Shown here in pieces: positions 2,688-12,208 of a DNA stretch of 64,000 nucleotides (its first letter is position 1; every line of letters starts with the position of its first letter). The stretch spans positions 1-64,000 of the forward strand of contig NZ_KB898187.1 in the NCBI RefSeq assembly GCF_000377505.1, given 5' to 3'. The notes beneath the pieces are model-generated. The model saw nothing but the letters and a program-made list of their open reading frames with translations. It was not told where the DNA came from and did no database searches. The stretch is from Paenibacillus massiliensis 2301065 = DSM 16942 (GTDB lineage: Bacteria; Bacillota; Bacilli; Paenibacillales; Paenibacillaceae). A program made the position numbers and the translations under genes.

Positions 2688-4199
2688 GTGGCTGATACGG
2701 AAATCACGACCTCTCCACCAGGTGCTGACAAGGAAAGCTGGCTGGCATTTATGGCCATTGTACTCGGAGCGTTCGTCGCTATCCTTAATAACAGTCTGAT
2801 TAATGTCGCGATTCCAAAGCTGACTACGGATCTCGGCTCAACGACCTCCCGTATTCAATGGGTAATAACTGGTTATACCCTGGCTTCGGGGGTGATCGTT
2901 CCGATTACCGGGTACATGGAGCAGAAGATTGGCTACAAGAAATTTCTCATCCTTGCGCTGAGCATCTTCGCGATCGGAACGGCTATTTGTGCTTTGGCGT
3001 GGAGCGACAGCTCCTTGATTGCGGCACGCGTGCTGGCTGGCTTGGGTGGAGGCGTCATCATGCCGCTGAGCATGACAATTGTCTACAAGATCATTCCACG
3101 ACATCAGATCGGTATGGCACTTGGAATATGGGGGATTGCAGCGATGGCTGCTCCTGCCGTAGGTCCGACGCTCAGTGGTTATTTGATCGAGTGGGTCAAC
3201 TGGAGATTCCTGTTCATCGTGTGTCTGCCTGTAACGGTATTGGCGATTCTGCTAGTGGTCTTCCTGATCAAGGAGCCAGAGAAGGGGACGCCGAGGGCGT
3301 TTGACCTGCCCGGCTTTGTACTGGCTGCGACTTGTGCAGGAACACTCCTGTATGCTCTATCCAACGGACAGAGTGACGGCTGGACTTCTTTCAAGATCGT
3401 AGGTCTGTTATTCATAGCTGTCTGGTCCTTGATTTTCCTGATTTATGTGGAGAGTGGCAAGGAGAACGCAGTGATTGAGATTTCCTTGTTCAAAAATTTT
3501 AAATACAGCATTAGCGTAGTGGCCTCCAGCTTGGTCATGATGGGGATGTATGGCGGGACCTTCCTGACTCCGTTGTTTTTGCAAAATATTCAGGGTGTCT
3601 CACCGATTGAGACAGGTATCATACTCATTCCCCAAGCGGTGGCGATGGCTGTCATGATGCCGATTGCTGGACGTCTATTCGATAAATACGGCATCGTGCC
3701 GCTCGGACTGGTGGGGCTGACACTCACAAGCTTCATGACTTATCACTTGCATCTGCTTACACCAGATACATCCCATGCATGGCTAGAGACCGTCATGGCG
3801 CTACGCGGCATCGGAATCGGCATTTGTATGATGCCTCTATCGACAGTAGGGATGAACGCCGTTCATCCAAGCAAGGTAGCCAACGCCTCCACGGCCTCTA
3901 ACTTGGTGCGTACGGTATCGGCTTCGATGGCGATTGCGGTCTTTACATCCATTATGCAGAGCCGATCGGCAGTGCATGCACAGCATGTATCCGAGTCGAT
4001 TACTGCAGATGCGGCTCACACTTTTCAGAGTATGCTGGGCAGTGGCTGGACCTCTACGGTCTCCAAGCTGATTCAGTTGGATGCTGCATCACGAGGTATT
4101 GCGGATACGTTTTTGATCTCATCGGTTCCGTTATTTTGCGCGATACCGCTTATTTTGCTGTTCATCGGTCAGCGTAAGCAGCGTGAGCAGGCTTCATAA
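2688..4199 (+). CDS. MFS drug-efflux transporter, DHA2 (EmrB/QacA) family
   Basis: 503 residues starting at GTG 2688 with AGGAGGGG just upstream. The length and hydrophobic pattern fit a 14-TM proton-driven multidrug exporter of the cytoplasmic membrane. Family motifs are visible: NVAIPKLTTDLG and WVITGYTLASG in TM1-TM2, GYKKFLILAL with the motif A region, RVLAGLGGGVIMPLSM, and the antiporter motif C region GIAAMAAPAVGPTLSGYL with WRFLFIVCLP after it. It is coupled to the short adaptor upstream. Substrates cannot be read from sequence; lipophilic drugs, dyes or a self-made metabolite are typical. Confidence 0.92.
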   Translation: MADTEITTSPPGADKESWLAFMAIVLGAFVAILNNSLINVAIPKLTTDLGSTTSRIQWVITGYTLASGVIVPITGYMEQKIGYKKFLILALSIFAIGTAICALAWSDSSLIAARVLAGLGGGVIMPLSMTIVYKIIPRHQIGMALGIWGIAAMAAPAVGPTLSGYLIEWVNWRFLFIVCLPVTVLAILLVVFLIKEPEKGTPRAFDLPGFVLAATCAGTLLYALSNGQSDGWTSFKIVGLLFIAVWSLIFLIYVESGKENAVIEISLFKNFKYSISVVASSLVMMGMYGGTFLTPLFLQNIQGVSPIETGIILIPQAVAMAVMMPIAGRLFDKYGIVPLGLVGLTLTSFMTYHLHLLTPDTSHAWLETVMALRGIGIGICMMPLSTVGMNAVHPSKVANASTASNLVRTVSASMAIAVFTSIMQSRSAVHAQHVSESITADAAHTFQSMLGSGWTSTVSKLIQLDAASRGIADTFLISSVPLFCAIPLILLFIGQRKQREQAS

Positions 4200-4368
4200 G
4201 CACGCATTATAATGATGGATTGTAATTCCGGCTTTGTAAGTAGGGATGTTCATCACGGATTCTAAGCAACGCGTTACACAAAACGGCATTCAGATGAAGG
4301 GCTATGAAGTACCAGGTCTGTCTGTCGTACAACAGATTATGATGTCATCAGTAAAGAAGGGAATAGCT

Positions 4369-5835
4369 ATGATAAAAATGCAAATGCAGCGGGCATTGCC
4401 TGTCCTAATAGTAACAACTGCCCTCCTGTCGGGCTGCGCAACAAGTACGCCAGCAACAGGGGAAATGGTTGTGCCTGTGAAGGTGTACCAGTCGCAAGAA
4501 GGCATCCTTGGTCACGGAAGCCAATATACGGGCACGATTACACCTGCCGAAACGGTAAACATCGTACCGAAAATATCCGGTCGCGTGGCGGCTCTTCAAG
4601 TCGATGTAGGGTCCGAGGTCAAGAAGGGACAAGTGCTCTTCACACTGGAGGATCAGGACCTGCGCAATAATGTGGCTAAAGCCGAGGCAGCAGCTACCGC
4701 AGCAGCAGCGGGTGTAGAGACGGCGACCGTCTCGCATGAATCCAGCATGGTCCAAGCACAGTCAGGGGTAGTGCAGTCCAAGAGCGGTGTTATTCAATCC
4801 CGCAATGGGCTCAGCCAGGCTAGCAATGCAGTCACACAAGCCGAGTCTGCCGTTAAGCAGAGTACGAATGGAGTGACCACGGCAAAAAATGCAGTTAAGC
4901 AGACCCAGCAGGCTTTGGAGGATTCGCAGCGGAATCTTAGTCGAATCCAGACCTTGTTCGAAGAGGGAGCGGCTACAAAATCCCAGCTGGAGCAGGCTCA
5001 AACAAGCATGACTGCTGCCGAAACGGCACATAGCAATGCTGAGAACGCACAAGCGAATGCCGAGCAGCAGCACATCGCGGCCCAGAAGGCGCTGGAGACA
5101 GCTCGTCAAGCCTATGCGAATGCCAATAGCTCATTTAGCAATGCCTCCAGTGGATACGGAAATGCTGAGCATCAGCTTGAGGTATCACGCAGTACGGCAG
5201 CTATTACTGCAAGTCAGGAATCGTTGAAGCAGGCACAGATTAACAAGGATATTGCACAAAATGCCCTGAAGGACAGCGTCATTACCTCGCCAATTAACGG
5301 TGTAGTAGGGGCCCGAAATATGGAAACGGGAGAGATGGTATCTCCTCAGGCAGCGGCATTAGTAGTGACGAATCTGAGCAAGGTCAATACCTTGATCTAT
5401 GTGCCATCCGAGGACATTAATCAGATTAAGCCAGGCGACCGCGTTCAGGTACGAGCTACCGCCTTCGATTACGTAACCTCAGGGACGGTCAAGACGATCA
5501 GCCCGCTAAGCCAGAATGGAAAAGGCTACCCGGTGAAGATTGAAGTGGATAATGCTGATATGAGCTTTAAGGCAGGGATGCTGGCAGCCGTCAGCTTCGC
5601 AGATCATGATGCCGAGTCCGGGATTCTGGTTCCTAGCTCTGCCGTACAGCACGTAGATGAGCATGATTATGTGTATGTTGCTCAAGAAGGGGTAGCTGTA
5701 CGTAAAGAGGTCAAGATCGGGCAAACAGCCGGTTCGCAGACACTGTTAACAGGCGGAATTGGAAAGGGAGAGTCCGTTATTACCAATAAACTGGCTTTGC
5801 TGGAGGACCATACTCCAATTCGTGTTTCCCAATAA
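4369..5835 (+). CDS. Efflux periplasmic-adaptor-type lipoprotein with a long heptad coiled coil
   Basis: 488 residues when started at ATG 4369, chosen because AGAAGGGA lies upstream and the protein then begins with a lipoprotein signal peptide ending in the lipobox LLSGC. An upstream in-frame ATG at 4246 would bury that signal. The RND-type adaptor fold is visible: lipoyl half (VVALQVDVGSEVKKGQVLF-like, ~65-95), a long coiled coil (~110-300), second lipoyl half (SPINGVVGARNMETGEMV) and a beta-barrel. The coiled coil is built of about 20 regular heptads of the type V-x-Q-S-x-x-G. It is the third gene of the efflux group, after a 170-bp gap. It may extend the MFS pump complex or serve another transporter. 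Confidence 0.85.
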   Translation: MIKMQMQRALPVLIVTTALLSGCATSTPATGEMVVPVKVYQSQEGILGHGSQYTGTITPAETVNIVPKISGRVAALQVDVGSEVKKGQVLFTLEDQDLRNNVAKAEAAATAAAAGVETATVSHESSMVQAQSGVVQSKSGVIQSRNGLSQASNAVTQAESAVKQSTNGVTTAKNAVKQTQQALEDSQRNLSRIQTLFEEGAATKSQLEQAQTSMTAAETAHSNAENAQANAEQQHIAAQKALETARQAYANANSSFSNASSGYGNAEHQLEVSRSTAAITASQESLKQAQINKDIAQNALKDSVITSPINGVVGARNMETGEMVSPQAAALVVTNLSKVNTLIYVPSEDINQIKPGDRVQVRATAFDYVTSGTVKTISPLSQNGKGYPVKIEVDNADMSFKAGMLAAVSFADHDAESGILVPSSAVQHVDEHDYVYVAQEGVAVRKEVKIGQTAGSQTLLTGGIGKGESVITNKLALLEDHTPIRVSQ

Positions 5836-5912: not shown

Positions 5913-6132
5913 TTCTGCAAATTCAAGTGCTAATTGCGGCAAGGTTGTAGAACGAGCTAAATAAGCATGAAAGCGGCTGGAGGTCCAAACGTTCACCATA
6001 GTTGCGCGGACCCGAGCTCTGAACATCTTCAGTTCAATCTATATAGTGTGAATTGTCAAATTTTGACGAGAAGCAGGTCGGTCATTTACACTAAGAGTGG
6101 CCTTTTTCATATGATAAATGGAGGGATTCACG

Positions 6133-6972
6133 ATGGAAATCAAGTTATCCTTGGATTATGAAGCCTATGAAGGTGGAGCAGTAATGGTGGACCTGGTTCG
6201 TGAGCTGGCGGGGAAGCCGGAGAGCACAGAGGTGACCTCATTGATCATTGGTGACTGGGGCGGAGCCTATGAGCAGGGCCCAGAGGATTTTGTGGAAGAG
6301 CTGATTGCACAAAAGGAACAGTTCCCGCAATTAAAGAAGCTGTTTATTGGAGACATGGGCTACGAGGAATGTGAGGTATCCTGGATCAATCAAGCGAATC
6401 TGGGGCCGCTGCTGCAGGCTTTTCCCCAGCTGGAGTCGTTCACGGTCAAGGGAAGTACAGATCTGGAGCTTGACCCGCTGAATCATGACCATTTACAGGA
6501 GCTCGTCATTATTTGTGGTGGACTTCCAAAAAGAGTCCTTCATCAAATCCATGCAGCCTCTCTACCGGAGCTACGGAAGCTGGAGCTGTATCTTGGGGTT
6601 GAGGACTATGGCTTTGATGGACAAATGGAGGATATCTTACCATTTCTGAACCAGAATCCTTTTCCGAAGCTGACTTATCTTGGGCTCAAGGATAGTGAGC
6701 TACAGGACGAGATTGCAATCGCTGCTGCACAGTCCCCGGTGCTGAGTCAATTGGAGTTGCTTGACCTCTCCATGGGCACGCTATCGGATCAAGGAGCTGA
6801 GGCTCTGCTGGCAAGCGAGAGTGTGCGTAAGCTCAAGCATCTGAATCTAAGCTACCATTACATGTCGGATGAGATGCTGCTGAAATGGAAACAAAGTGGA
6901 CTGTCTGTAGATGTAAGTGAACAGCAAGAGTCTGATGAGGATGATTGGCGTTATCCGGCATTGACCGAATAG
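6133..6972 (+). CDS. STM4015-family leucine-rich-repeat protein
   Basis: 279 residues from ATG 6133, chosen over ATG 6118 because GGAGGGA (6120-6125) is correctly spaced only for 6133. No signal peptide. From ~residue 75 the protein shows leucine-rich repeats of ribonuclease-inhibitor type (LESFTVKGSTDLEL, LRKLELYLGVEDYG, LTYLGLKDSELQDE, LELLDLSMGTLSDQG, LKHLNLSYHYMSDE). It is the first gene of the operon whose later members match the Salmonella STM4014-STM4011 set. LRR folds bind proteins, so it may scaffold the enzymes or present a substrate. The function of the whole family is not established to my knowledge. Confidence 0.85.
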   Translation: MEIKLSLDYEAYEGGAVMVDLVRELAGKPESTEVTSLIIGDWGGAYEQGPEDFVEELIAQKEQFPQLKKLFIGDMGYEECEVSWINQANLGPLLQAFPQLESFTVKGSTDLELDPLNHDHLQELVIICGGLPKRVLHQIHAASLPELRKLELYLGVEDYGFDGQMEDILPFLNQNPFPKLTYLGLKDSELQDEIAIAAAQSPVLSQLELLDLSMGTLSDQGAEALLASESVRKLKHLNLSYHYMSDEMLLKWKQSGLSVDVSEQQESDEDDWRYPALTE

Positions 6973-7029
6973 GATGTGCCATAGACATTAGTGAATGTAG
7001 CTGATGAACGTAGCAAAGGTGGGATCATC

Positions 7030-8373
7030 ATGAATCGCGCGACATGTAGGCAGGTAGGCGAGGGGATGCCTGACATCTATGCAGACAGCCCTCATGTGGA
7101 CAACATCGCCTGGATGAGGAATGTGCCTTACATTGTCATCGGTAATTCAGGCAATAAGCGCATACTCGGTATTCAACAAGCCAGAGACAGTCTCGGATTG
7201 CAACCACCCATAGTGCTGAGCTACCTTGAACTGCTGGAATGGAAGCGTAGGGGGCGACACCTGTCGGAAATGCCTGAGTTGATGGCGGTGCATGTTAATC
7301 GTTCAGCCAGCGCCAGAGGCCCAGTCCTGCGTCTTGATGCTCCAGGTGATCATTTTGGTGTAGAAATGGAGCTTATCGCTCTAGGCGCTGAAGAGAGCAT
7401 AGGCGACGATAGCCTGCTGCCCATGAAGGGCAGTCTAGCTACGGGAAGAATGCTCTTGGCAGAGCAGGCCAGAGCATTGCAGCCGCATCCAGGGCGTATT
7501 TGGTATCCTGCGCAGTGGTTCAAAGGCTACTGCCGATTGCTGGCATGGCTTCGCTCGGAAATGCTACTACTATGGCCTGAACACCACTGGATCAATGATC
7601 CTGTGGAGATTCCAGTCATGTTCGACAAGCGTTGCACCAGTATCCGTCTGTCTTCAGCAGGGGTGAGAGTCCCTCAATCGCTGCATGGGCACTCATTAAG
7701 GCCTTCTGCGAAGCATTGCCCTGCGGATGTTGCGATTCCAGGAAGCGGTGAGGAACTGAGAGAGAACTTGCAGAATGCAGGCATGCATCGCGCATTCATC
7801 AAGCTGTTCTGCGGCTCTGCTGCTTCGGGTGTGATTGCCTATCAATTTCATCCGGTGACGGGGAAAGAAATTGCCCAGACGACGATTGGAATGGAGCAAA
7901 GCAGAGGTGAGCTCGTATTCTACAACTCTGGCCGCCTACACAAGTATACCGACGCAGCAAGCATCGGGCGACTATTAGACTGGCTATGTCACGAGGGAGT
8001 ACATGTGGAGCGCTGGATTCCCAAAGCTTCCATTCACGGGAAAGCCTTCGATGTCCGGCAGCTAGTACACCGGGGCAAGGCCTGCCATGCCGTGCTACGT
8101 GCAAGCCGAACACCGATTACCAATCTTCACCTGCGCAACGAACGTCTTCAGCCTGAGGAGGCAGGGCTAGCCAATCCTATCCTGCAGAAGGTGGCAGCAA
8201 CAGCCGAGCAAGCTCTTGCGGCGTTTCCACATTCCACGACAGCGGGAGTGGATGTATTGGTTCCTGCGGACGGCAGCGCACCCTATGTGGTGGATATGAA
8301 TCCTTATGGTGATCTGCTGTATCATGTTCGCTATGAAGGCATGGACACGTATACGTGGGAAATGGCGCATTAA
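7030..8373 (+). CDS. STM4014-family ATP-grasp protein
   Basis: 447 residues from ATG 7030, preferred over GTG 6991 because AAAGGTGGG lies 6 bases upstream. The C-terminal half has ATP-grasp features: a region with a lysine-containing strand (HRAFIKLFCGSAASGVIAY), the GKAFDVRQLVHRGKA strand, and the metal-binding end AGVDVLVPADG followed by VVDMNPYGDLL, where the Asp and Asn coordinate Mg. ATP-grasp enzymes join a carboxylate to an amine or thiol through an acyl phosphate. Substrate unknown. Expected to act in the cytoplasm with its operon partners. Confidence 0.85.
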   Translation: MNRATCRQVGEGMPDIYADSPHVDNIAWMRNVPYIVIGNSGNKRILGIQQARDSLGLQPPIVLSYLELLEWKRRGRHLSEMPELMAVHVNRSASARGPVLRLDAPGDHFGVEMELIALGAEESIGDDSLLPMKGSLATGRMLLAEQARALQPHPGRIWYPAQWFKGYCRLLAWLRSEMLLLWPEHHWINDPVEIPVMFDKRCTSIRLSSAGVRVPQSLHGHSLRPSAKHCPADVAIPGSGEELRENLQNAGMHRAFIKLFCGSAASGVIAYQFHPVTGKEIAQTTIGMEQSRGELVFYNSGRLHKYTDAASIGRLLDWLCHEGVHVERWIPKASIHGKAFDVRQLVHRGKACHAVLRASRTPITNLHLRNERLQPEEAGLANPILQKVAATAEQALAAFPHSTTAGVDVLVPADGSAPYVVDMNPYGDLLYHVRYEGMDTYTWEMAH

Positions 8374-8417
8374 ATATAGAGTAAGATAGACAACTGCAAT
8401 GACAAGGAGGGTGCCGA

Positions 8418-9200
8418 ATGCCAGATATGAATGAGATTGTAGGTACCCATGACATCCTGATGATTACACTGGATACGCTGCGTTATGATGTAGCCAAGCT
8501 GGAGGAGGAGCATTGTCCGAACCTGTGTGCGGACGGCCCCTGGGAGAAGAGACATACACCAGGAAGCTTTACCTATGCGGCTCACCATGCCTTCTTTGGT
8601 GGATTTCTACCGACGCCAGCGAACACCGACAAAGCCTCACATGTAAGGCTGTTTCATACGAAAAATACAGGACTGCCCACGCACCCCCATAGCTGGTTGT
8701 TTGATGCCCCTGACCTGGTAACAGGACTACAGCAGGAAGGGTATCGGACCATTTGTATAGGTGGTGTCATCTTCTTCACCAAAAAGAACAAGCTGGCCAA
8801 GGTTCTGCCATCATACTTTATGGAAAGCTACTGGCGGATGACCTTCGGTGTAACGAACCCGAGATCCACGGAGCATCAAGTAAATCATGCGCTAAAGCTT
8901 CTAGCTGATGCTGATCCTGCGCAGCGGCTATTTATGTTTTTGAATGTGTCGGCTCTGCATGGCCCCAATCATTATTTTGTACCGGGTGCGAAGAAGGATT
9001 CCATCGAGACCCAGAGAGCGGGGCTTCGATATGTGGATGAGCAATTGGGGCCACTGTTCGAAGCGATGCGCAGACGCTCCAAGACCTTCTGCATGGTGTT
9101 CTCGGATCATGGAACGGCCTACGGAGAGGATGGCTATGAAGGGCATCGGCTAGCACACGAGGTCGTCTGGAATGTGCCATATCGCGAATTCTTCCTGTGA
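8418..9200 (+). CDS. STM4013/SEN3800-family hydrolase (alkaline phosphatase/sulfatase fold)
   Basis: 260 residues from ATG 8418 with AAGGAGGG upstream. The N-terminal ITLDTLRYD is the metal- and nucleophile-bearing motif of the alkaline phosphatase/sulfatase superfamily (Asp plus catalytic Thr). Further metal ligands are seen in SALHGPNHYF and near the C-terminus in VFSDHGTAYGEDGYEGHR. The protein lacks a signal peptide, so it should hydrolyse or transfer a phosphate or sulfate ester inside the cell. In a cluster with an APS kinase, a sulfo- or phospho-ester intermediate is plausible. Intergenic distances before and after are 44 and 88 bp. Confidence 0.88.
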   Translation: MPDMNEIVGTHDILMITLDTLRYDVAKLEEEHCPNLCADGPWEKRHTPGSFTYAAHHAFFGGFLPTPANTDKASHVRLFHTKNTGLPTHPHSWLFDAPDLVTGLQQEGYRTICIGGVIFFTKKNKLAKVLPSYFMESYWRMTFGVTNPRSTEHQVNHALKLLADADPAQRLFMFLNVSALHGPNHYFVPGAKKDSIETQRAGLRYVDEQLGPLFEAMRRRSKTFCMVFSDHGTAYGEDGYEGHRLAHEVVWNVPYREFFL

Positions 9201-9288
9201 TGAGAAATATCGTGCAGCAGACAGCAGATTGAAGTATGAACAGGGGCTTGATGTCCTGATGGAGCATAAATGAGAGGAGGGAGCATTA

Positions 9289-10713
9289 ATGAGTACCGTG
9301 CCCGAGGAACCGGCTCTGTCCATGAATCGTGGCGGCTCTACACATCAGAGTAAGAGGCCACAGCGAATGAACAGAGCAGATTGGCCGCAGCACTGGATCG
9401 AATGGGAGGCAGGACTACGGGAGGCCCCCTATCGTTCTTATTTATACTCTTATCCACATAAGACGGCATATCATGAGATTAATCCACCGATTCCATTATC
9501 CACCCTATGGAGTAAGGAGAAGCTGGAGAGCTATTTTTTGTACATGCATATCCCGTTTTGCGGTGCGAGATGCGGCTTCTGCAATCTCTTCACGCTCCCG
9601 GATCGAAGAGCTGATGTCCATGTGGAGTACGTGGATGCGCTTGAGCGTCAGGCACGTGAATGGGCTCCATTTGTGAAGGGAAGTCCGTTCTCTCGCTTTG
9701 CGATTGGTGGTGGAACACCTACTTTGCTGTCAGCGGAGCTGCTGGAGCGGGTATTCCATATTGCCAAGCAAGAGATGGGGCTGGATACGGAGCAAGTCTC
9801 CATTTCGGTGGAGACCTCACCAGATACAGTTACTCCCGATCGGCTGGAGGTGCTGAAGAAGCACCGTACCGATCGAATCAGCATGGGCATTCAGAGCTTT
9901 GTAGAAGAGGAGAGCATAGCCATTCATCGACCGCAAAAGCCCGCTCTGGTCCGACAGGCATTGGGTATGCTACAAGAGTATCGTTTCCCGCTACTAAATG
10001 TAGACCTGATCTATGGACTACCTGGGCAGACGGTAGAGTCGTGGCTGTATTCGCTGGAACAGGCTCTGTCGTACAATCCCGGTGAAATTTTTATTTACCC
10101 ACTATATATTCGTGAGAATACCATTCTCAAGCCTGGACAGACAGGTCTAGAGAAGGATATTCGCCTTGAGCTATACAAGGCCGCGAGTCAACGGCTTCTG
10201 CAGGCTGGCTATAAGCAGTTCTCCATGCGACGCTTTGCACGTGAGGGTGCAGGTACCACGAAATCACTGCTTCCCTACAGCTGTCAGGAGGAAGGAATGG
10301 TAGGTCTGGGCTGCGGCGCACGCTCGTATACTCAGGGCGTTCATTACGCTTCCAGATACGGTACGAGCATTGCAGCAACACGGCATATTCTTGCAGATTA
10401 TGTGGCAGCCAAGCGACATGATGCCGTGGACTACGGCTTCATCTTGAATGAAGAGGAGCGGCAGCGTCGTTTCATCCTGAAGGCACTTCTCCATGCAGAG
10501 GGGCTGGAGCTTGCAGCCTATAGTGAGCGCTTTGGCGCAGAGCCCTTCGTTCACGTACCAGAGCTGTCGATGCTGGTCGGTACTGGAGTTGCATATATTG
10601 AAGAGAACGTTCTTCGGCTGACAGAGGAGGGCATGGGCTACTCGGATGCCATTGGGGATTGGTTGATTTCATCCGATGTTCGTAACCGAATGGAAGGATA
10701 TGTACACGCATGA
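9289..10713 (+). CDS. STM4012-family radical SAM protein (HemW-like)
   Basis: 474 residues from ATG 9289 with AGGAGGGAG upstream. Residues ~86-99 contain HIPFCGARCGFC, the CxxxCxxC motif binding the [4Fe-4S] cluster that cleaves S-adenosylmethionine. Further SAM-binding motifs are GGGTPTLL and the HemW-like IYGLPGQT. The fold resembles the coproporphyrinogen oxidase-like/HemW group, some of which bind haem or act as methyltransferases. The stop codon overlaps the start of the next gene (ATGA), so the two radical SAM enzymes are translationally coupled. Reaction unknown. Confidence 0.9.
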   Translation: MSTVPEEPALSMNRGGSTHQSKRPQRMNRADWPQHWIEWEAGLREAPYRSYLYSYPHKTAYHEINPPIPLSTLWSKEKLESYFLYMHIPFCGARCGFCNLFTLPDRRADVHVEYVDALERQAREWAPFVKGSPFSRFAIGGGTPTLLSAELLERVFHIAKQEMGLDTEQVSISVETSPDTVTPDRLEVLKKHRTDRISMGIQSFVEEESIAIHRPQKPALVRQALGMLQEYRFPLLNVDLIYGLPGQTVESWLYSLEQALSYNPGEIFIYPLYIRENTILKPGQTGLEKDIRLELYKAASQRLLQAGYKQFSMRRFAREGAGTTKSLLPYSCQEEGMVGLGCGARSYTQGVHYASRYGTSIAATRHILADYVAAKRHDAVDYGFILNEEERQRRFILKALLHAEGLELAAYSERFGAEPFVHVPELSMLVGTGVAYIEENVLRLTEEGMGYSDAIGDWLISSDVRNRMEGYVHA

Positions 10714-11600
10714 GGGCGACTTTATATTATCGAGGGACACTATCCTCTTGTAATTATACTTGTCCATATTGTCCTTTCAGCAAGACGAAGGATTCGCGTG
10801 AGACACTAATGCTTGATCGCAGACAGCTGGCGGAATTTGTAGACTGGGTTGAAGCACAGCAGGAGCAGGGGCATACGCTGTCGATCTTTTTTAATCCCTA
10901 TGGCGAGGCGTTGATTCATTCCTGGTATCGCGAGGCTCTGGTACGTTTATCCCATATGCCTCATATCGAGAAGTTATCCATTCAGACGAATCTATCCGTG
11001 AAGCTGGACTGGACAGAGCAATTGCAGCCAGGGAAAATGTCATTCTGGGCGACTTATCATCCAGGTCAGACACAGGAAGACCACTTTCTGTCTCAATGTC
11101 AAGCCATCCACAGCCGTGGGCTTGGACTCAGTGTTGGGACGGTGGGGATTCGTCAGTCGTTTCCAGCTATTCGCACCCTCCGGGCCCAGCTTCCGAAGGA
11201 GGTCTATATGTGGGTGAATGCCTTCAAAGACCGCCCACACTATTATACGCCCGCGGAGATAGAGGAATTAACCGCTCTTGATCCTCACTTTGGATGGAAT
11301 GTACAGGATTATCCGAGTCAGGGCAAGGCTTGTGCAGCAGGAGAGACGGTCTTCTACGTGCAGGGGAATGGGAATGTCAAACGATGCTACAAGGATCGGC
11401 AAGTCATCGGCCATCTCTATCGGCAAGGACTTGAGGGATTGGCTGCTGAGCGAAGCTGTCGCATGAAGATGTGCGGCTGTCACATCGGATATATCCATAT
11501 GAAGGGGCATCCGATTGGTGAGCAATTCGGCGGAGGACTGCTGGAACGGATTCCAGGTCGACCGATACCGCAAGAGGACAGGGAGGTGCAGCAGGCATGA
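10710..11600 (+). CDS. STM4011-family radical SAM protein
   Basis: 296 residues. ATG 10710 overlaps the previous stop by 4 bases. CNYTCPYCPFSKT (~residues 15-27) is the radical SAM CxxxCxxC motif. The C-terminal ~80 residues hold further cysteines (CAAGE, VKRCYKD, SCRMKMCGCH), a layout like a SPASM/twitch auxiliary Fe-S cluster domain found in peptide-modifying radical SAM enzymes. The protein is short for a full SPASM enzyme. The family is known only as a neighbour of STM4012-STM4015. Auxiliary-cluster binding is inferred from cysteine spacing. Confidence 0.88.
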   Translation: MRATLYYRGTLSSCNYTCPYCPFSKTKDSRETLMLDRRQLAEFVDWVEAQQEQGHTLSIFFNPYGEALIHSWYREALVRLSHMPHIEKLSIQTNLSVKLDWTEQLQPGKMSFWATYHPGQTQEDHFLSQCQAIHSRGLGLSVGTVGIRQSFPAIRTLRAQLPKEVYMWVNAFKDRPHYYTPAEIEELTALDPHFGWNVQDYPSQGKACAAGETVFYVQGNGNVKRCYKDRQVIGHLYRQGLEGLAAERSCRMKMCGCHIGYIHMKGHPIGEQFGGGLLERIPGRPIPQEDREVQQA

Positions 11601-12208
11601 TACAGGCTCGTACGCCGCTTCTGAGACGAGACAAGGAACAGCTTAACGAGCATACAGCAGCCGTAATCTGGTTAACGGGTCTGCCCGGTGCAGGCAAATC
11701 CACGCTTGCTATAGAGCTTGAGCATATCTTGCATGAGAAGGGCATTCGAACGGCCCTCTTGGATGGGGATGTATTGCGCCAAGGCCTTAATCGTGATCTG
11801 GGGTTTACTGCCGAGGCACGAGCAGAGAATATTCGAAGGACAGCCGAAGCCGCACGTCTACTAGCGAATGCGGGAGTGGTCACCATCTGTGCTCTGATTT
11901 CACCCTACGAAGCAGATCGTCACCAGGCCAGAGAGATCATCGGGCCCATTCCGTTCTGCGAGGTGTATGTGGATTGTGACCTTGATATTTGCGAAAGTCG
12001 TGATCCTAAGGGAATGTATCGGAAGGCACGAAGTGGAGATATTCCGAATTTTACAGGAGTCAGCGCACCCTATGAGGTGCCCACTCACCCAGAGCTGCGA
12101 ATTGCGACTGGGCACAACGATGTGAAGCAATCGATCGATGAGCTGCTGTCCGGGCTGTCCGCACTGCAGTTGATTCGAAACGTGAGATTGGATAACGTTC
12201 ATCACTAG
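11597..12208 (+). CDS. cysC: Adenylyl-sulfate (APS) kinase
   Basis: 203 residues. ATG 11597 overlaps the previous stop by 4 bases. APS kinase makes PAPS from APS and ATP. Seen here: the P-loop WLTGLPGAGKST, the DGDVLRQGLNRDLGF motif that binds APS, ENIRRTAEAARLLANAG, and the lid region RDPKGMYRKARSGDIPNFTG. No ATP sulfurylase or sulfite-producing reductase accompanies it. It is fused translationally to an STM4011-4015 operon rather than to a cysteine pathway, which suggests the operon needs PAPS as a sulfo or phospho-adenylyl donor. A changed substrate range cannot be excluded. Confidence 0.92.
   Translation: MIQARTPLLRRDKEQLNEHTAAVIWLTGLPGAGKSTLAIELEHILHEKGIRTALLDGDVLRQGLNRDLGFTAEARAENIRRTAEAARLLANAGVVTICALISPYEADRHQAREIIGPIPFCEVYVDCDLDICESRDPKGMYRKARSGDIPNFTGVSAPYEVPTHPELRIATGHNDVKQSIDELLSGLSALQLIRNVRLDNVHH

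Follow-up and report, generated by a model that had tools for sequence, protein, structure and literature searches.

What do the STM4015, STM4014, STM4013, STM4012 and STM4011 genes make, and why does one copy of their cluster end in a gene for adenosine 5'-phosphosulfate (APS) kinase? The five families are named after locus tags only, and they are spread from Salmonella to cyanobacteria. We analyzed the copy in Paenibacillus massiliensis 2301065 = DSM 16942, which lies in positions 1 to 64,000 of contig NZ_KB898187.1 (assembly GCF_000377505.1); this whole stretch of 64,000 nucleotides is called the window below. Reading the open reading frames (ORFs) of the window confirmed six genes on the plus strand, in the order STM4015-STM4014-STM4013-STM4012-STM4011-cysC. 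An initial annotation, made from the DNA letters, had given the same positions and families, and all six products pass their NCBIfam cut-offs (score/cut-off in bits: STM4015 360.9/275, STM4014 397.6/175, STM4013 406/250, STM4012 588.6/380, STM4011 401.4/200, apsK 227.5/138.7). The two ATGA overlaps it described are also present, between STM4012 and STM4011 (10710..10713, plus strand) and between STM4011 and cysC (11597..11600, plus strand). It had expected the product to be a modified free small molecule or a separate peptide; the evidence presented here favours chemistry at the C-terminal end of the leucine-rich repeat (LRR) protein STM4015, which had been listed there without being recognised as the likely substrate. 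In the accessible parts of the open-licence literature the names STM4011 to STM4015 occur in passing mentions only, and titles and abstract openings yielded no open-licence paper describing an LRR/radical S-adenosylmethionine (SAM)/ATP-grasp/sulfatase system of this kind.

Our sample comprised 245 Paenibacillaceae genomes, 95 of which have STM4011 above the cut-off. The five genes stand in one order and on one strand in the window and in all 93 further Paenibacillaceae loci compared; the remaining positive genome (G082), whose STM4011 is partial and lies on a short contig, enters the positive count but not the locus comparison. Three genomes with a weak or broken STM4011 (G130, G188 and G212) were excluded from the operon-positive set. 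In G130 the gene lies in pieces, with an internal stop (C9:312045-312669), and G188 is partly similar. Annotated records of Salmonella, Deinococcus, Methylobacterium and Streptomyces give the five genes in this same order. A scan with an STM4013 alignment gave at least 580 relatives among at least 593 genomic stretches, from which 80 loci were retained; distant loci with incomplete clusters (L131, L195, L205 and others) were kept in the distant-locus counts. No neighbour beyond the six genes is conserved across the genera of the Paenibacillaceae loci.

The feature that led us to regard STM4015 as the target is its C-terminus. In the window, STM4015 (6133..6972, plus strand; NF038076, with weak Pfam LRR matches; 284 amino acids (aa) from the first ATG, at 6118) has an acidic linker, the EQQESDEDDW region (6919..6948, plus strand), and then the tail RYPALTE with its stop codon (6949..6972, plus strand). 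Paenibacillaceae STM4015 proteins share the final seven residues R-[Y/F/S]-P-x-[LI]-T-E, with R, P, T and E each found in 94/94. More generally the tail reads R-[YF]-x-x-[VL]-x-Glu-COOH, near-invariant after a linker that is variable and acidic. We collected 77 STM4015 sequences from outside the family, 43 from distant loci and 34 from actinomycetes. Glu is the last residue of 94/94 Paenibacillaceae and 74/77 other proteins, and a [YF]xx[VLIMTA]xE end occurs in 93/94 and 72/77, respectively. In the distant loci the last residues of STM4011 to STM4014 are far more variable than the end of STM4015. Cyanobacteria, myxobacteria and actinomycetes have two to five LRR paralogues per cluster with one set of enzymes, and the N-terminal parts of these paralogues differ (WGR in myxobacteria, HEAT-like in Calothrix). 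Across 49 pairs of paralogues from the same locus, identity was 52% in the body, 16% in the ten residues before the tail, and 85% at the R, Y and E positions of the tail. A conserved free C-terminus following a drifting acidic linker looks like a site of recognition or modification. To judge from these sequences, STM4015 looks like the protein substrate of the cluster, a reading new in this analysis, and we consider it likely that its tail is the site of modification. Searching the window's own genome for R-Y-P-x-hydrophobic-T-E-stop returned STM4015 as the sole match; a match to the tail pattern in another genome, G481, was discarded as not being an STM4015 gene. In one cyanobacterial paralogue (L202:6315-7601) the tail RYCSVA is followed by six extra residues, DLAKYY, without a terminal Glu.

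The second question concerns the sixth gene. The product of cysC (11597..12208, plus strand) scores above cut-off for both TIGR00455 (227.5 bits) and PF01583, has the P-loop and DGDxxR motifs, and is the sole APS kinase found in the genome. The remark in the initial annotation that the kinase comes without ATP sulfurylase or reductase is correct for the cluster and incorrect for the genome, which has sat (C28:5804-6436) and cysH (C28:7153-7662) together on another contig, with no cysC near them on that contig. The CysH of this genome carries CC...CxxC, the pattern of APS reductases. The annotation had also reasoned that an adjacency of cysC unique to this strain would speak against a common pathway. 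This objection is avoided, since cysC lies no more than 1.8 kb after STM4011, often overlapping it, in 36/94 loci from five genera.

The same dependence appears where the genes are unlinked. Scoring APS kinase as present only for matches with E below 1e-20 (matches above 1e-20 counted as absent), a hand tally over seven genera found it in 95/95 operon-positive versus 37/63 operon-negative genomes, a comparison that leaves out 87 genomes of operon-free genera. For the 59 positive genomes whose cysC is unlinked, exact by-genus probabilities multiply to 8e-10, which is indicative, because kinship within genera is not removed. In the genus g13 of our sample, 21/21 operon-positive genomes have the kinase versus 0/10 operon-free ones. 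Because all ten of the latter have sat, the need to assimilate sulfate cannot account for this difference, and cysteine/sulfate assimilation was rejected as the reason for cysC in this genus; ATP sulfurylase itself is found in 226/245 Paenibacillaceae genomes. Outside the family, strong APS kinases are present in 19/20 distant genomes, the exception having a lone STM4013 on the contig retrieved; a hand tally in actinomycetes (19/19 with the operon versus about 153/197 overall) gives weak support. On a Myxococcales contig (L203), a 560-aa fused ATP sulfurylase-APS kinase overlaps STM4013 by 4 nucleotides, a single case which suggests that what is needed is 3'-phosphoadenosine 5'-phosphosulfate (PAPS) and not another phosphorylated compound. 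The association of cysC with the operon is real, and the role for PAPS and APS kinase proposed by the initial annotation is supported by this co-occurrence. From it we infer that the pathway probably requires PAPS.

The annotation had further suggested looking for a sulfotransferase or a small precursor nearby. No sulfotransferase was identified in the window's genome, where the search covered PF00685 and PF13469, both absent, but not PF09037 or PF03567, and no separate precursor was identified among ORFs of at least 80 aa, smaller ORFs not having been examined. Among the 36 genomes with linked cysC, PF13469 was found in none and PF00685 in one, as a weak match, while 41 of the 59 genomes with unlinked cysC have PF13469 or PF00685; for PF13469, linked versus unlinked, the by-genus probabilities multiply to 4.6e-4. 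By these counts, the pathway needs no protein of the Sulfotransfer_1/3 families. On a simple reading, the operon brings its own APS kinase where no other user of PAPS keeps one in the genome. Two of the unlinked kinase genes have informative surroundings: that of G182 adjoins a PF09037 gene, and that of G025 lies on the opposite strand beside a lasso-peptide cluster (L324:2460-11734) with PqqD, B2, asparagine synthase, HprK-like, nucleotidyltransferase-like and ATP-binding cassette (ABC) genes and a PF13469 sulfotransferase.

Which enzyme could act on the tail? STM4014 (7030..8373, plus strand, alternative GTG start 6991; NF038074) has neither a Pfam match nor a direct sequence match in the PDB. 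A 30-row profile matched LysX (E 4.3e-4 and 6.2e-4) and RimK (0.011), its first match, along 42 positions, being an inositol phosphate kinase (E 3.9e-4). A structure model of the protein is confident, with a predicted local distance difference test (pLDDT) score of 86.7 and a predicted template modelling (pTM) score of 0.86. Using this model, Foldseek ranked LysX best (E 1.7e-10), then PsnB with its precursor, ArgX with LysW, and RimK with RpsF. VIA-align placed RimK, LysX/ArgX and ArgX at Z ~22, RimK being best by Z, and glutathione synthetase, Asp1 kinase, DcsG and D-Ala ligases at Z ~20. A GSWGR motif is not present in the STM4014 translation. Profile search and model together support the earlier assignment of STM4014 as an ATP-grasp ligase, modelled as nearest to RimK, LysX and ArgX by fold. 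In the accessible text of the sources, LysX and ArgX attach an amino group to the C-terminal Glu of LysW (PMC10433800; PMC9303977), and the target of RimK is the C-terminus of S6 (PMC8939145). A LysX-like loading of the STM4015 tail Glu by STM4014 is plausible on the model, and we put its chances slightly below even.

The other three enzymes suggest what might follow. STM4012 (9289..10713, plus strand; NF006067) is a HemN/HemW-like radical SAM protein (C91, C95, C98). Its nearest PDB sequences are HemN (1olt, 2e-31) and the radical SAM methyltransferase NocN (7e-15), and it falls below the cut-off for coproporphyrinogen oxidase HemN (TIGR00538, 141.5 versus 324.95 bits). STM4011 (10710..11600, plus strand; NF038073) has eight Cys, three of the radical SAM site plus 208, 226, 250, 255 and 257, each invariant in 113/113 sequences; extra conserved Cys in the C-terminal domain make it SPASM/twitch-like. 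This region matched SkfB (E 1.1e-3), and also BtrN; by fold, BlsE and viperin came out best, then anSME, BtrN and MoaA. STM4013 (8418..9200, plus strand; NF038075, Pfam Sulfatase/Phosphodiest) belongs to the alkaline-phosphatase superfamily, its best match being nucleotide pyrophosphatases (E 1.2e-6). Eight of its residues (D19, T52, H181, D207, D230, H231, H243 and H247) are invariant in 118/118 sequences. The initial annotation spoke of an alkaline-phosphatase/sulfatase-fold hydrolase. A formylglycine sulfatase was rejected here: neither C/S-x-P-x-R nor the wider C/S-x-P/A-x-R signature is present, and the site reads G-S-F-T52, with Thr in all 118. We take T52 to be at the likely nucleophile position.

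Put together, these results lead us to propose, at about even confidence for the predicted chemistry as a whole, that a group is attached to the C-terminal Glu of an LRR carrier and tailored there by a pair of radical SAM enzymes, in a process that needs PAPS. STM4015 would be the carrier, or scaffold, with its LRR domain, flexible acidic linker and exposed tail ending in Glu. STM4014 would couple a small building block, through an amino group, to that Glu, and the HemN-like STM4012 and twitch/SPASM-like STM4011 would then alter the tethered group. PAPS would come from the linked or unlinked APS kinase, and STM4013, with its conserved Thr, would be the best candidate in the operon for a sulfo- or phosphoryl-transfer or hydrolysis step. 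No protease or exporter is conserved beside the five genes in Paenibacillaceae or in the distant loci, and several LRR paralogues share one tail; the product may thus well remain on the STM4015 protein.

Among known systems, the cluster appears to work most like the amino-group carrier systems (LysW/ArgW with LysX/ArgX; Vzb22), with which it shares a C-terminal Glu closing an acidic tail and an ATP-grasp ligase of RimK/LysX fold. The C-terminal Glu of the LysW EDWGE motif is the attachment site according to the accessible text of PMC10433800, and acidic residues serve in recognition according to that of PMC9303977. It is apparently not a LysW-system member, however, since the LysW motif, the zinc domain and the partner enzymes are missing: STM4015 is an LRR protein of 280-450 aa across loci instead of a small zinc protein, and the cluster adds radical SAM and alkaline-phosphatase-fold enzymes and a link to PAPS. 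RimK with ribosomal protein S6 resembles the proposed reaction of STM4014 in that an ATP-grasp enzyme acts on a protein C-terminal Glu, but the STM operon also has radical SAM proteins and several paralogues of the proposed substrate. Pearlins (the TglA/TmoA scaffold peptides) resemble the proposed pathway in that a small molecule is built at the C-terminal end of a ribosomal scaffold and a radical SAM enzyme takes part, as far as the accessible text of PMC9303977 goes; they load through a tRNA-dependent PEARL, and the cluster is not a pearlin system, as no PEARL family is found among the six window proteins. Graspetides (PsnB) and SPASM peptides (SkfB), both ribosomally synthesised and post-translationally modified peptides (RiPPs), show the same ATP-grasp and auxiliary-cluster radical SAM folds; the STM cluster differs in its proposed protein-sized LRR substrate, no short precursor having been identified among ORFs of at least 80 aa. 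Finally, the ascamycin cluster (acm) combines APS kinase, sulfatase-like and radical SAM genes, makes a nucleoside product with a sulfotransferase, and has no LRR protein or ATP-grasp enzyme described in the accessible part of the source (PMC4257720).

Several observations weigh against a loaded LRR carrier. The cluster is without EDWGE and LysZ/Y/J/K, STM4015 ending in DDWRYPALTE; three of the 77 tails from outside Paenibacillaceae lack the terminal Glu; and the tail Tyr is replaced by Asn in Salmonella and by Ser in Methylobacterium. Glutathione synthetase, DcsG, D-Ala-D-Ala ligases and PPIP5K come within about 2-3 Z units of the top matches of STM4014, so that the acceptor cannot be read from the ATP-grasp fold. 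BlsE and viperin, the top fold matches of STM4011, act on small molecules or nucleotides, and the tail may be conserved as a tag for recognition or sorting, without being modified itself. If it were a docking tag only, the LRR proteins would be chaperone or adaptor subunits gathering the enzymes, whose product would be a free small molecule derived from ordinary metabolites and PAPS. Conservation of the tail alone cannot separate docking from modification, and the fold matches of STM4011 suit such a product; several divergent paralogues per enzyme set fit a single adaptor poorly, however, and a near-constant Glu at a free C-terminus suits a reactive carboxylate, so that we regard docking as improbable. 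Rather unlikely, in our view, is a RiPP-like route in which STM4015 is a large-leader precursor, its tail Arg, Tyr and Glu being crosslinked or trimmed by the radical SAM proteins, the ATP-grasp enzyme closing an ester or amide, and a protease elsewhere freeing a short peptide. The conserved tail R, Y and E after an unconserved linker, the SkfB-like auxiliary-cluster region of STM4011 and the closeness of STM4014 to the graspetide ligase PsnB with its precursor would all agree with it, but a precursor of about 280-450 aa with WGR or HEAT domains is unlike the usual leaders, positions -4 to -1 differ between phyla, and the protease and exporter are not conserved beside the five genes.

The part played by PAPS can be questioned too. 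Beside STM4011, cysC is missing in 58/94 loci; related genomes make the counts non-independent; and in the single genus g1 case examined (G025) the unlinked cysC adjoins a lasso-peptide sulfation cluster and may owe its presence to that cluster only, so that the g1 part of the co-occurrence count is weaker. The kinase gene might then have arrived beside the operon several times for general PAPS supply, unrelated to it. The complete co-occurrence, the operon-free g13 genomes that have sat and no APS kinase, the absence of PF13469 from all linked genomes, the ATGA overlaps and the fused enzyme overlapping STM4013 in another phylum make this quite improbable. The cysC product could also be a divergent kinase phosphorylating a tethered pathway intermediate instead of APS. 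In our best tree, 35/36 linked kinases group with three others in a single clade, away from most of the unlinked kinases; the window kinase stands among ordinary unlinked ones, however, the P-loop and DGDxxR are intact in 36/36, and the Myxococcales case also brings ATP sulfurylase, all of which leaves a divergent kinase very unlikely. The best tree suggests that the window cysC was captured independently; an approximately unbiased (AU) test does not reject a single clade of linked kinases (p 0.42; strict set 0.063).

If a loaded LRR carrier is correct, it would identify the substrate that has been missing for an old unknown, define where that substrate is modified and add a co-substrate that the pathway requires, and scaffold-tethered biosynthesis would take place on protein-sized, diversified LRR carriers. 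That the gene set brings its own activated-sulfate enzyme in this bacterium suggests a new kind of protein-tethered chemistry. As a speculation that we think unlikely, the cluster may represent a new class of post-translational modification, in which LRR proteins with different binding domains keep one PAPS-dependent, radical-tailored group on the C-terminal Glu as a built-in cofactor or warhead, with STM4013 as an alkaline-phosphatase-fold PAPS sulfotransferase.

We also noted features around the cluster. A search for a defence system with PADLOC gave weak or generic matches only. In the window, a terminator-like stem-loop with a T run (6080-6110) lies directly upstream of STM4015. A DHA2 major facilitator superfamily (MFS) efflux gene and a resistance-nodulation-division (RND)-type adaptor gene (2688-5835) precede the operon, as they do on a Paenibacillus plasmid (L132); this position is not kept across genera. 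In genus g1 (L047-L106), 25 loci have downstream of STM4011, on the opposite strand, a gene that, by its start sequence, probably encodes an asparagine synthase. A DUF6745-type protein, with LRR-like repeats in some loci, adjoins the cluster in Deinococcus, Methylobacterium, Streptomyces, Nonomuraea and Chloroflexota (L128:11031-12352, L129:4498-5823, L130:3171-4635, L197, L201 and L207), in several cases together with a protein of about 100 aa. STM4013 is 100% identical in Paenibacillus massiliensis subsp. panacisoli DSM 21345 (L134). Solitary STM4013 relatives also occur (L131:7980-8774, L133:5118-5864): one is on a plasmid of Streptomyces albidoflavus, with NUDIX and lasso B2 genes next to it, and one, with 25% identity, is found on Agrobacterium Ti plasmids.

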